From NCBI GenBank assembly GCA_002435145.1, contig DJLT01000085.1, forward strand, positions 1 through 37,358: 37,358 nucleotides of DNA, written 5' to 3'. The DNA is from Neptuniibacter sp. UBA6509. Its GTDB lineage: Bacteria; Pseudomonadota; Gammaproteobacteria; Pseudomonadales; Balneatricaceae. Positions 1,982 through 5,686 of this stretch are shown piece after piece. A model generated the notes under the pieces. That model was not told where the DNA came from, did not search any database, and was given only the letters and a program-made list of their open reading frames with translations. Numbering within the stretch: position 1 is the first letter of the stretch; the number at the start of each line of letters is the position of its first letter. Made by a program: the position numbers and the translations under genes.

Positions 1982-2107
1982 GGGGGTATATGTACCTTGG
2001 TACAGTTACAAATACTAACTAGATGTATAGAATATGAACAAATACTCTTCTTACCCGCCTAATTGATTTGTTTAGGAGCAGGGTCGCAAATTAAGACAGG
2101 GAATAAC

Positions 2108-3217
2108 ATGATGTTTAAGCGTAATTTAGTATCTGTTTCTATTGCTTCGGTTTTGTTGACTTCATCTTTGGTTGCTTCGGCGAATACTGGCACTTCCGAA
2201 GAGGAAGACTCTGTAGGTTCTTGGGGCCAGTGGGCTCAGAACTATGCAACTGCTGCAGGCGGTGAATTTAATTTGGGCGCGTTAGCATTTGCTGCATCTT
2301 TGCAGGGAGAGACGGGTCGAAATAGGCTGAATGAAGCTGGATTTGATTCGCCGACTGATGATGCTCCTGTTGATGCAATTGGTTGTGATGCTGGTTCATA
2401 TTGTGGATTTGTTACGATCTCATCTCGATCTGTTAAACCTACTGAGAGTATGATGGGCGCTCCTGGTGATGTTGGTATCTTAAAAGCTGATGTTCAGCCT
2501 GTTTTTGATGGTGGCGAGCAAGGTAGAGCTCGAGTTCAGGTTGGTGGTGGTCTTTATGTGATGGGCTCTTTTGACGTAGAGGGTAATGAAGGTTATGAGC
2601 TATCTGTTGATGGCGCTGAAGGTTATGTAAGTCGTAACGGTGTTAACCTAAACAAGCGAACTGTTAATGGCGAGTCGGGCATGAGTTCCTATAGCCGTTC
2701 TCCATGGTTGGGAGTAGGTTCGGGTGGTTGGTACGATAATCAGTATGGTGAAGTTTACATGTCTCAAGGTGGTTCTCTTTATGGTGGAGTAACAACCTCT
2801 TTAGACCAGTTGAACAGTTATATAGGCTCGCATGGCCCTGTTGCTACTTATCGAGGAACTACGATTGATGGCGGTAACTTTATAGCGCGCATCGATTTTT
2901 CAGATAACTCATGGAGCGGTATCTGGAATGGTGGCTCAGATGGCAAAGTTGGTGTGAGTGGTGAAAACGTTGTCGGTCAAGTTGGCTTTACAGTAACGAA
3001 AGGTTCTATTGATGGGATTAATTTTTCTGCTGCTTCAAGTGAGCTAGGTGCGAAAGATGGCTCTGTTACAGGCAGTGTAAATGGCGCCTTATTTGGTGGT
3101 AGTGCTCAGAGTGTTGCTGGTATGGTTGATATAGAGAAGACAACAGGGAGTTATACCAATAAACAGCATGAAACTATCTTCGAAGGTGTAAATACAAAGA
3201 TTAGAGTGCCTAATTAA
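2108..3217 (+). CDS. Secreted Gly-rich protein with TbpB-like C-terminal barrel
   Basis: A 369-residue exported protein. A Sec signal peptide covers about residues 1-25 (KRN, then a hydrophobic run, then VASA-N), with no lipobox Cys, so it is not an obvious lipoprotein. The mature part is rich in Gly and Ser. The C-terminal third has GNFIARIDFSDNSWSG (256-271) and GSVNGALFGGSAQSVAG (322-338), which resemble the closing strands of the transferrin-binding-protein-B-like eight-stranded barrel. A Cys pair at 93 and 99 may form a disulfide. The ATG at 2108 follows ACAGGGAA by seven bases; a longer frame from 2063 would spoil the signal peptide. It is monocistronic, with a strong terminator downstream. 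The homology is inferred from motifs only; ligand and location are unknown. Confidence 0.6.
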   Translation: MMFKRNLVSVSIASVLLTSSLVASANTGTSEEEDSVGSWGQWAQNYATAAGGEFNLGALAFAASLQGETGRNRLNEAGFDSPTDDAPVDAIGCDAGSYCGFVTISSRSVKPTESMMGAPGDVGILKADVQPVFDGGEQGRARVQVGGGLYVMGSFDVEGNEGYELSVDGAEGYVSRNGVNLNKRTVNGESGMSSYSRSPWLGVGSGGWYDNQYGEVYMSQGGSLYGGVTTSLDQLNSYIGSHGPVATYRGTTIDGGNFIARIDFSDNSWSGIWNGGSDGKVGVSGENVVGQVGFTVTKGSIDGINFSAASSELGAKDGSVTGSVNGALFGGSAQSVAGMVDIEKTTGSYTNKQHETIFEGVNTKIRVPN

Positions 3218-3235
3218 AGAATACTTAATCAGATG

Positions 3236-3267
3236 AAAAACCAAGGCTCGCGCCTTGGTTTTTTTTT
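3236..3267 (+). terminator. Rho-independent terminator
   Basis: Perfect stem AACCAAGGC / GCCTTGGTT with loop TCGC, flanked by A5 upstream and a nine-base T run downstream. It ends the transcript of the secreted barrel protein and insulates the DUF1538 operon. Confidence 0.93.
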
Positions 3268-3288: not shown

Positions 3289-3319
3289 TTGAATCGAAGT
3301 AGCCTTTCAATTGTATATA
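3289..3319 (+). promoter_or_regulatory. Candidate sigma-70 promoter of the DUF1538 operon
   Basis: TTGAAT at 3289-3294 and TG-TATATA with its hexamer at 3314-3319, spacer 19. It lies just after the terminator and before the AAGGAG at 3334-3339. The spacing is long, so this is a suggestion only, but a promoter is expected in this 65-base gap. Confidence 0.35.
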
Positions 3320-3348
3320 ACCCTTTATTTTATAAGGAGTTACCCGAG

Positions 3349-4083
3349 TTGAAAGCTGGGTTATTCGCTTTAGGTAGATCTATGTTTGGGAGCTTGAGGG
3401 ATCTTGCTCCAATTGTGTTAGTTATCGCATTTTTTCAGGTAGTGGTCTTACAGCAGTCGGTTCCAGATTTTGTGGGTTTGGTGACTGGATTGCTATGTGT
3501 TGTAGCGGGGTTAACTTTCTTTATTTATGGCCTAGAGATGGGGCTTTTCCCCATCGGTGAGAGTATGGCCCATGCTTTTGCGCGTAAAGGCAGTGTCTTT
3601 TGGCTACTTACTTTTGCTTTTTCTCTAGGTTTTGGAACAACTGTTGCTGAACCTGCCTTAATTGCTGTCGCTGCCGAAGCTGCGAGTGTGGCTGCCGCGG
3701 GTGGAATGATTGAGGTGGGTGAGGAGTCTCAGCATAGTTATGCTTCTGGCTTACGTTATACCGTTGCTTTCTCTGTGGGTTTGGCTATTGTTTTAGGCGT
3801 CCTGCGAATACTTAAAGGTTGGTCGATTCAGTACATGATAATTGCAGGCTATATGCTTGTTGTGATTATGACTATGTTTGCGCCAAGGGAAATTATAGGG
3901 ATTGCTTACGATTCTGGCGGCGTTACCACTTCGACAATTACGGTTCCGTTAGTTACAGCCTTAGGTGTAGGTTTAGCTTCATCAATCGAGGGACGTAATC
4001 CTATGATTGATGGTTTTGGCTTGATCGCTTTTGCATCATTAACGCCTATGATTTTTGTTATGGTATACGGGATGGTGATCTGA
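3349..4083 (+). CDS. DUF1538 family integral membrane protein, first subunit
   Basis: A hydrophobic protein of about 244 residues with roughly seven membrane segments. Family hallmarks are [14 protein letters not shown] (near 95-108), [20 protein letters not shown] (near 186-205) and [15 protein letters not shown] near the C-terminus. The same motifs recur in the next gene, so the two are paralogues, probably two halves of one membrane complex. Start choice: the frame is open from a TTG at 3289, but a strong AAGGAG at 3334-3339 sits nine bases before the TTG at 3349, and the candidate promoter overlaps the longer reading; an ATG at 3382 is the other option. No function is established for the family as far as I know. 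Conserved polar motifs in membrane segments and the P-II and CBS partners suggest a regulated transporter or channel, which is inference. Confidence 0.8.
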
Positions 4084-4862
4084 TGGAGTTGTTGAATCAA
4101 TTTATTCAGATAACCCTTTCAACCATTAAAGATGTTATTCCTATTGCGCTGATTATTTTTGGCTTTCAGTTCTTGGTAATTAGGCGTCGTATTGCTAATT
4201 TGCGTAAAGTCTTAATTGGTTTTGCTTACGTAATTATTGGGCTGGCTCTGTTTTTGTTAGGCCTAGAAAAAGCGCTGTTTCCTATTGGGCGCTTAATGGC
4301 AGAGCAGTTGACTGATCCTGATTTCATTCGAGGCTGGAGTGGTTCTGTTGCTGGAGCACTGCACTGGAGTGATTATTTCTGGGTTTACATATTTGCTTTT
4401 GCTATCGGCGCGAGTACAACGATTGCAGAGCCTTCTTTGATTGCTGTGGCGATTAAAGCACATGAAGTCTCTGGTGGGGCTATCGGTATTTGGGGGTTAC
4501 GAATCGCTGTCGCTATTGGTGTGGCAGTAGGGATTTCATTAGGTACTTGGCGAATTGTTACGGGTTACCCTATTCATTGGTTTATTATTTCTGGCTACGT
4601 TGTGGTCGTGATACAAACTTTCTTTGCGCCGAAAATGATTGTGCCGCTGGCTTATGATTCTGGTGGGGTAACAACATCAACGGTTACTGTGCCGTTGGTT
4701 GCAGCGTTGGGGCTAGGGCTTGCTGAGACAGTGCCTGGTCGAAGCGCTTTAATAGATGGATTTGGTTTGATTGCATTTGCTAGTTTGTTTCCGATGATTA
4801 CAGTGATGGCTTATGCTCAAATTTCTGAATTTCGTGGAAAGCGTAATCAGGTAACTGACTAG
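4083..4862 (+). CDS. DUF1538 family integral membrane protein, second subunit
   Basis: A 259-residue paralogue of the preceding gene, whose TGA stop overlaps this ATG by one base (TGATG), indicating translational coupling. Shared blocks are LEKALFPIGRLMAEQL (61-76), ASTTIAEPSLIAVAIKA (110-126), [20 protein letters not shown] (190-209) and [16 protein letters not shown] (224-239). There are about seven membrane segments, and basic residues (RRR at 34-36, RGKR near the end) suggest cytoplasmic loops. The -TTxAEP-LIAVA- and [10 protein letters not shown] motifs carry the only conserved charged or hydroxyl residues inside hydrophobic stretches and are the likely functional sites. The two genes most simply encode a heterodimer. 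The substrate is unknown. Confidence 0.82.
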   Translation: MELLNQFIQITLSTIKDVIPIALIIFGFQFLVIRRRIANLRKVLIGFAYVIIGLALFLLGLEKALFPIGRLMAEQLTDPDFIRGWSGSVAGALHWSDYFWVYIFAFAIGASTTIAEPSLIAVAIKAHEVSGGAIGIWGLRIAVAIGVAVGISLGTWRIVTGYPIHWFIISGYVVVVIQTFFAPKMIVPLAYDSGGVTTSTVTVPLVAALGLGLAETVPGRSALIDGFGLIAFASLFPMITVMAYAQISEFRGKRNQVTD

Positions 4863-4882
4863 AATTAGTCAAAGAGGCAGAT

Positions 4883-5233
4883 ATGCATTTTAAGTTATTA
4901 GTGGTTTTTGTCGAAGACTCAAAGACAGATGCTGTCATGAAGGCAGCTAGGGAAGCGGGTGCTACAGGTGCTACAGTCATTAATAATGCGCGTGGTGAAG
5001 GGGTTACCAAAACTAAAACCTTTTTTGGCTTAACCTTAGAGACTCAGCGAGATGTCGTCCTTTTTATTGTTGAAGAGCACTTAAGCCGAAAGATTTTGGA
5101 AACTATATCTGAAGTTGCTGAGCTTGATGAGCAGCCGGGCAGAGGAATAGCAATACAGATTGATGTTGAGGATGCGGTAGGTGTGGCGCATCAAGTAGAA
5201 AAGTTAGCAAATCTGGTTGAGGATGAACTATGA
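4883..5233 (+). CDS. P-II-like signalling protein
   Basis: A 116-residue protein with the GlnB/GlnK fold pattern: LLVVFVEDSKTDAVMKAARE (5-24), GATGATVINNARG (26-38), a T-loop of about 37-55, DVVLFIVEEHLSRKILETI, and a B-loop-like LDEQPGRGIAIQI (81-93). It lacks the uridylylated Tyr of canonical GlnB/GlnK; the T-loop reads EGVTKTKTFFGLTLETQ. It is therefore an atypical P-II, probably a nucleotide-sensing partner of the DUF1538 membrane pair, by analogy with GlnK-AmtB and SbtB-SbtA. GAGG stands eight bases before the ATG. It overlaps the CBS gene by four bases (ATGA). Fold assignment is confident; ligand and partner are inferred. Confidence 0.8.
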   Translation: MHFKLLVVFVEDSKTDAVMKAAREAGATGATVINNARGEGVTKTKTFFGLTLETQRDVVLFIVEEHLSRKILETISEVAELDEQPGRGIAIQIDVEDAVGVAHQVEKLANLVEDEL

Positions 5234-5634
5234 ATTCGTCAAGAAAGGTTGTTAGGGCTCAAGATGTTATGACTGATGAGTTCGCTATTATTGATGGTCT
5301 GATTACAGTGAAAGAGGCGTTGCAGATATTTAAAGAGCGTGGTGCCAAGGTTCTGATAATTGATAAGCGGCATGAAGATGATGAATATGGCCTATTGTTA
5401 TTATCTGATATAGCTAAAAATGTTGTTGCTAAAGATCGTTCGCCAGAGCGTGTGAATGTTTATGAAGTAATGGCTAAGCCATTGATCTCAGTTGATCCTC
5501 AAATGGATATTCGTTACTGCGCGCGGTTGTTTGAGAGCTTTGGTTTAGCTCATGCGCCAGTGATAGAGGCTGATAAGGTCTTAGGTGTTGTTAATTATCA
5601 CAATATTGTATTAAAAGGTTTGCTGGAAAATTAG
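5230..5634 (+). CDS. Tandem CBS-domain protein
   Basis: A 134-residue stand-alone Bateman module. CBS1 runs from about residue 9 (AQDVMTDEFAIIDGLITVKE) to LLLLSDIAKNVV. CBS2 starts at VYEVMAKPLISVDPQMDI and ends at VIEADKVLGVVNYHNIVLKG. Such modules usually bind adenine nucleotides and gate an associated transporter or enzyme. It is the last gene of the DUF1538/P-II operon, starting inside the P-II stop codon (ATGA), and is followed by a strong terminator. Two adenylate-type sensors on one membrane pair suggests control by cell energy or a second nucleotide. The domain call is firm; the role is inferred. Confidence 0.85.
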   Translation: MNSSRKVVRAQDVMTDEFAIIDGLITVKEALQIFKERGAKVLIIDKRHEDDEYGLLLLSDIAKNVVAKDRSPERVNVYEVMAKPLISVDPQMDIRYCARLFESFGLAHAPVIEADKVLGVVNYHNIVLKGLLEN

Positions 5635-5639
5635 TTAAT

Positions 5640-5666
5640 AAAAAGCCTGCTAAAAGCAGGCTTTTT
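5640..5666. terminator. Bidirectional Rho-independent terminator
   Basis: Perfect stem AAAAAGCCTGC / GCAGGCTTTTT with a short loop TAAAA. The A and T tracts on both sides allow it to serve the CBS gene (plus) and the class II DAHP synthase gene (minus), whose stop lies about 20 bases away. Confidence 0.92.
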
Positions 5667-5686
5667 ATTATGTGGAGCCTGCCTTG

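Follow-up and report, generated by a model that had tools for sequence, protein, structure and literature searches.

DUF1538 genes are accompanied by a P-II gene in distant bacteria

The subject of this study is a four-gene operon on the + strand of a 37,358-nucleotide stretch of DNA from Neptuniibacter sp. UBA6509 (contig DJLT01000085.1, assembly GCA_002435145.1), the whole of which we call the window. An umpA-like gene (3349..4083) and an umpB-like gene (4083..4862), each encoding a DUF1538 membrane protein, are followed by a gene for a P-II-like protein (4883..5233) and one for a stand-alone tandem CBS protein (5230..5634). This order, and the idea that it reflects a conserved system, came from an earlier annotation made from the sequence alone (the original prediction). 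Open reading frames (ORFs) and Pfam agree with the order, and the genome survey that had been named beforehand as what might overturn the idea upheld it: a P-II gene lies at most 1 kb downstream in 191/196 DUF1538 clusters with downstream room, so that a rare or local co-occurrence is rejected. We consider it probable that the operon encodes an antiporter of the UmpAB type gated by a dedicated atypical P-II protein, a system to which many lineages have added a CBS sensor.

Two clusters with less than 500 nucleotides of room were left out of the 196, one cut, with no P-II gene seen (L270), and one with a P-II gene (L096). Two DUF1538 domains were present in 196/198 clusters, one cluster having a single domain and one having three. 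Of the two sensors in the original prediction, P-II stands as the near-invariant partner, whereas the CBS gene, found in 142/187 clusters and in none of the six plasmid loci described below, is common but optional and is rejected as an obligatory part.

The association was followed through several samples. Among near relatives, DUF1538 was found in 28/57 genomes (the window's own and 56 others), and the regions from the other 27 contained 29 DUF1538 clusters, all with a downstream P-II gene and 26 with a CBS gene. A sample of the window's phylum had DUF1538 in 74/249 genomes; the regions retrieved, which come from 59 of the 73 such genomes besides the window's own and do not always include every cluster per genome, showed a downstream P-II gene in 67/71 clusters and a CBS gene in 32/65. 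By coordinates, P-II lies beside DUF1538 in 12 of the remaining 14 genomes, the other two having DUF1538 at a contig edge (G174) or P-II on another contig (G191). Around a Nitrospirae-labelled metagenome-assembled genome (MAG), 5/100 genomes had DUF1538, and all five had P-II and CBS; around a Desulfuromonadales-labelled MAG, 7/148 had DUF1538, with P-II in 6/6 loci that were not truncated at the edge of a contig, and CBS in 3/6. Both samples include their center genomes, which were themselves reached through this operon. Named genomes held at least 583 confirmed DUF1538 stretches. The 80 named loci analyzed are the best 80 of these, hence close relatives whose species may also be represented in the other sets, and they had P-II in 78/79 cases (at least 500 nucleotides downstream) and CBS in 76/76 (at least 1,000 nucleotides). 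Finally, eight plasmid records matched UmpB, and the six examined (five from Clostridia, one from Methylocystis) had P-II in 6/6 and CBS in 0/6; in all four plasmid records annotated there, the neighbor was called a "P-II family nitrogen regulator."

DUF1538 proteins and their P-IIs have also been inherited together. Over 191 DUF1538/P-II pairs, tree distances correlated at 0.88 between UmpA and P-II, 0.87 between UmpB and P-II, and 0.98 between UmpA and UmpB, a correlation to which shared species history contributes. The cleaner evidence for co-inheritance is provided by three loci with two scorable systems, where each P-II was nearest to the P-IIs of its own DUF1538 class.

At the level of whole genomes, a profile of P-IIs from DUF1538 loci (A2) separated the P-IIs of the 249 phylum genomes sharply, its matches lying at 84 bits or more or at 52 bits or less among those listed, a listing that ends at the weak side. 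The subtype so defined was present in 77/249 genomes, including all 74 with DUF1538 and 3 of the 175 others (G078, G159, and G163).

The DUF1538 pair is related to a characterized antiporter

Domain PF07556 was covered at full length in UmpA and UmpB of the window (E values of 1.3e-69 and 2.9e-68; model positions 1-211 and 1-210), and the NCBIfam UmpA and UmpB models, NF041627 and NF041628, were matched at nearly full length (4.5e-115 and 9.4e-111). An umpAB pair of DUF1538 genes was cloned from Halomonas zhaodongensis by Meng et al. in 2017 (PMC5484666). According to that report, the pair restores salt and pH tolerance of E. coli KNabc, UmpA and UmpB form a heterodimer by co-immunoprecipitation, and the activity is Na+(Li+, K+)/H+ antiport with an optimum at pH 9. 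The original prediction had known of no established function or substrate for DUF1538, a premise that these data correct; its proposal that the two proteins make up one heteromeric transporter agrees with them. The cloned 4.2-kb fragment carried ORF1, ORF2, and the pair, and the accessible text (PMC5484666) does not tell what lies beyond, nor does it contain the terms "PII," "P-II," "GlnB," "GlnK," or "CBS." Our literature search on DUF1538 and UmpAB found a single pair with an assay and a single biochemical study. It found no link to P-II or CBS in the papers that mention DUF1538, "PII" occurring only within a motif string in PMC7221264; preprints and most subscription papers lay outside the search, so such a link is possibly in print elsewhere. 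The system is real and widespread and, as far as the literature was searched, undescribed as a system, its transporter part being known.

Both motifs that the original prediction had noted as shared were found in the two window proteins. The first, TTxAEPxLIAVA, was read in the UmpA sequence at 3637..3672 and occurs in UmpB as TTIAEPSLIAVA (4416..4451); the second, of 11 residues, was likewise read in UmpA at 3904..3936 and is found in UmpB at 4650..4682 (all on the + strand). Our structure predictions were of single chains, and that of UmpB, folded alone, was confident (pLDDT 91.7, pTM 0.83), with helices broken at both shared motifs. The UmpB copies of the motifs are marked by E116 and D192, respectively, and these two residues, together with D225, D17, R140, R157, and R220, were invariant in 43 aligned UmpA/UmpB sequences. 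The acidic residues among these are our candidates for a cation/proton site. Comparison of the UmpB fold with the PDB gave no confident match, which should not be taken to indicate a new fold, and a PDB sequence search with a UmpB profile returned a lone match at E=2, a design model, and no solved relative.

The P-II-like protein is atypical

The third protein belongs to the P-II family by its Pfam match (1.2e-10, above the gathering score) and by the P-II fold of its model (pLDDT 79, with T-loop residues 37-45 under 50). Foldseek matches of the model included GlnK, among them a chain of the AmtB complex, as well as SbtB and CPII chains; weak sequence matches below cutoff were to DUF190 (0.0039) and PG0541 (0.065). 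When aligned with the two canonical P-IIs that this genome encodes, its T-loop shows a gap of five residues, and the position of the uridylylated Tyr51 is occupied by T54. In an alignment of 62 P-IIs, comprising that of the window and 61 of the 79 found in the locus sets, residues 36-62 were without Tyr in 61 sequences, as the original prediction had observed for the window protein.

P-II proteins are trimers, and some loci depart from the one-domain form. A tandem-double P-II of 217 to 229 amino acids (within a 305-amino-acid ORF in L278) directly follows a fused DUF1538 gene on the Clostridia plasmids L273, L275, L276, L277, and L278. Three P-II-like stretches in one chain of 369 to 420 amino acids were found directly 3' of a fused DUF1538 gene at L060:3902-5161, L264:331-1437, and L265:290-1432; these were detected by our own profile (A2, see above), with a weak first domain (E values of 0.0001 to 0.004), and Pfam recognized no more than a single P-II domain per chain, L265 yielding none. 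Because P-IIs act as trimers, such a chain looks like a single-chain trimer, a tentative interpretation. No fusion of DUF1538 to P-II or of P-II to CBS in one ORF was found in the four locus sets searched. Other DUF1538 arrangements were a natural UmpA-UmpB fusion (L097), an A-B-B row of DUF1538 followed by P-II and CBS in G326 (L237/L242), and double clusters in which a separate and a fused UmpAB system adjoin each other and a P-II gene precedes umpA (L037, L043, and L144).

The CBS protein and its nucleotide motif

The fourth protein carries a tandem CBS pair by both Pfam (two stretches, 3.5e-14) and a PDB search, in which its closest sequence match was CBS-CP12 (5nmu, E=1e-34). CBS domains bind nucleotides through a G-x-x-S/T-x-x-D motif. 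In the first CBS domain, G54 and D60 were present in 38/38 aligned sequences, and the window protein has L57 at the S/T position. Nucleotide binding by this protein is plausible, but the second CBS domain of the window copy deviates from the motif (see below).

Proposed mechanism and alternatives

In the mechanism that we favor, UmpA and UmpB would form a two-subunit monovalent cation/proton antiporter, with a substrate in this organism that we infer. The P-II protein would dock onto UmpAB from the cytoplasmic side and, upon a small-ligand signal, lower or tune antiport, much as GlnK acts on AmtB and SbtB on its partner SbtA. The CBS protein would most likely supply an adenine-nucleotide (energy) input, through P-II or through the antiporter. 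P-II is more likely to restrain or tune transport than to enable it, because UmpAB worked in E. coli as the pair alone.

Several observations weigh against this reading. Expression of the pair alone gave active UmpAB in E. coli (PMC5484666), so neither P-II nor CBS is needed for transport. The contact between UmpAB and P-II is one that we infer, and our models are of single chains. Both window proteins missed the equivalog cutoffs (383 versus 490 bits for NF041627 and 369 versus 500 bits for NF041628): the pair is related to the UmpAB equivalog and is not filed as one. In the second CBS domain, the window protein has N122 and N125 where the 38 aligned sequences have S/T in 31 (position 122) and D/E in 30 (position 125; D in 23).

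Exceptions to the gene association belong on the same side, as does the make-up of the A2 profile. Its rows are P-IIs encoded next to DUF1538 genes, and half of them (9 of 18) were drawn from 8 of the 249 genomes, the window's included, so that the genome-level test is not fully independent; the Fisher value of 2e-60 is descriptive only because the rows are related. DUF1538 pairs without an adjoining P-II occur at L106 (a Thiomargarita MAG), L188, L190, and L200, and a further cluster, in L144, has its P-II upstream instead. The L106 genome shows two P-IIs only, both with canonical-level scores. In G138 (L188), G170 (L200), and G191, where the DUF1538 match is partial, a P-II-CBS pair is located elsewhere in the genome. 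G143 (L190) has a subtype P-II near argB (L245); its second DUF1538, a fused one, is accompanied by a P-II of its own (L222). Conversely, subtype P-IIs without DUF1538 beside them exist (L243 to L253, L257, and L258).

The surroundings of these detached P-IIs were inspected as well. ArgB (acetylglutamate kinase) was identified by NCBIfam near L243 and L245, look-alike ORFs were seen by eye in L244, L248, L250, L251, and L253, and a glutamate-cysteine ligase gene lies near the P-II of L243. The two detached P-II-CBS pairs tested, L254 and L255, adjoin a malic-enzyme-like gene.

The best surviving alternative, which we regard as rather unlikely, keeps the architecture and changes the cargo: DUF1538 pairs would mainly move another solute, such as bicarbonate or an organic ion, with coupling to Na+ or H+. 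The antiport observed in E. coli would then be a partial or side activity, and P-II, like SbtB, would report on carbon or energy status. It draws on there being only one assayed DUF1538 pair in our search, on the occurrence of DUF1538 also in Clostridia, and on the nature of the P-II-controlled transporters named in the accessible part of PMC10710835, which are nutrient importers (AmtB, urea and nitrate ABC transporters, and SbtA). The distribution of Na+-NQR, a marker of sodium bioenergetics, points the same way: it accompanies DUF1538 in 13/13 genomes from the order or class to which the window belongs and in 0/61 of other classes in the same sample, and 35 genomes from that order or class carry nqrA without DUF1538. 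The co-occurrence is thus mixed, and a role of Na+ is not general. Against another cargo stand the published Na+, Li+, and K+ antiport, its pH optimum of 9, and the co-immunoprecipitated heterodimer (PMC5484666), as well as the placing of DUF1538 among the 20 Pfam families weighing most in a growth-pH model (PMC13255231).

The ligand site of P-II bears on a further alternative. The canonical GlnB/GlnK ligand positions for phosphate and 2-oxoglutarate, which we take to be Q39, K58, K90, R101, and R103, correspond in the window protein to T42, a gap, I89, G100, and A102, a replacement that also weighs against the reading of a ligand-gated antiporter: with these positions replaced, P-II may respond to some other signal or to none at all, and because the residues are not kept, the original description of a candidate "dual-nucleotide-gated" system is unproven as regards P-II. 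P-II could then be a ligand-insensitive subunit or assembly factor and no sensor, as might also fit the locus kind that encodes three P-II domains per chain. We consider this improbable, since R37, E39, Q55, R56, D57, E64, E65, H66, R69, E73, D94, E96, and D97, as well as Q104, are conserved in 55 to 62 of the 62 P-IIs and all but the last were singled out as residues that could form a binding site, and since UmpAB works without P-II (PMC5484666). We read the conserved polar set together with the lost canonical residues as a changed ligand site. That P-II and CBS are just co-transcribed with umpAB and regulate other targets, as the subtype P-IIs without DUF1538 beside them (several near argB) and the three genomes with the subtype and no DUF1538 match might suggest, is very improbable in view of the 191/196 adjacency over very different genomes in fused and unfused forms, the co-inheritance of matching classes, and the retention of P-II elsewhere in the genome.

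Extending the favored reading of a P-II-gated UmpAB antiporter, we propose more tentatively that DUF1538 antiporters may constitute a distinct and widespread class of P-II-gated cation/proton exchangers. An ancient, dedicated P-II subtype, whose novel site would take a ligand other than ATP or 2-oxoglutarate, would cap UmpAB; a CBS energy sensor would have been added in Pseudomonadota and other lineages, and in some the P-II trimer would have been fused into a three-domain chain for a fused antiporter. The roles for which P-II proteins are mainly known lie in nitrogen and carbon regulation. If the proposal is true, P-II control would extend to pH and ion homeostasis via an alkali-cation/proton antiporter. 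The recurrence of DUF1538 with P-II in distant bacteria points to an unstudied regulation of salt and pH balance. A P-II-controlled antiporter would offer an entry point to a family for which we found one biochemical study and no solved relative, and it would bear on many genes named only "DUF1538 domain-containing protein" or "P-II family nitrogen regulator."

Locus layout and neighboring genes

The four genes are tightly packed. As the original prediction had it, umpA and umpB overlap by 1 nucleotide and the P-II and CBS genes by 4; 20 nucleotides separate the umpB stop from the P-II start. In the 80 named loci, for which start codons were chosen by script, the gap between umpA and umpB was -1 or -4 in 62/79 cases and that between P-II and CBS was -4 in 69/78, and because the overlaps recur across loci, they are more than chance. 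The TTG start of umpA at 3349 is preceded by AAGGAG at 3334-3339, and an upstream in-frame TTG at 3289 begins the listed ORF. Terminator-like hairpins flank the operon on both sides, again in line with the prediction: one upstream on the + strand (3235..3264; 13 pairs, then a T run) and one, to which no strand was assigned (5636..5670; 16 pairs), between the operon and a convergent class-II DAHP synthase gene, its opposite-strand neighbor. The scan reported the latter on the - strand only, and the T run at its end on the + strand was seen by eye; by itself the scan is weak (3 sites versus a shuffle mean of 2.4). No promoter-like site was found by the scan on the + strand between 3150 and 5750. 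The upstream neighbor (2063-3217) is an ORF of 384 amino acids that matched no Pfam or NCBIfam model within the limits applied.

Comparison with known systems

The window system resembles UmpAB of H. zhaodongensis in its two adjacent, overlapping, paralogous DUF1538 genes and differs in that its proteins fall under the NF041627/NF041628 equivalog cutoffs. In a sample of 293 genomes from the order, the UmpB model was matched in 57 and its cutoff passed in one, G033, at 500.1 bits; the G033 locus, whose UmpA (418 bits) stays under its own cutoff, has P-II upstream of umpA and P-II and CBS downstream, and regulators therefore also accompany the sample's form closest to the characterized one. With GlnK-AmtB and SbtB-SbtA it has in common a P-II-fold protein encoded beside a membrane transporter and the keeping of the linked genes over a wide phylogenetic distance. 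In contrast to these, its transporter is of another family (with no confident PDB fold match for UmpB) and its P-II has a shortened T-loop, no Tyr, and lost canonical ligand residues. According to the accessible part of PMC10710835, P-II control is seemingly limited to transporters able to act as trimers. The weak likeness of the P-II protein to the PG0541 and DUF190 families does not reach their cutoffs, and CPII chains are among its Foldseek matches. The CBS pair has its best PDB match in CBS-CP12, from which it differs in size (134 versus 208 amino acids) and in being encoded together with an antiporter and a P-II protein.

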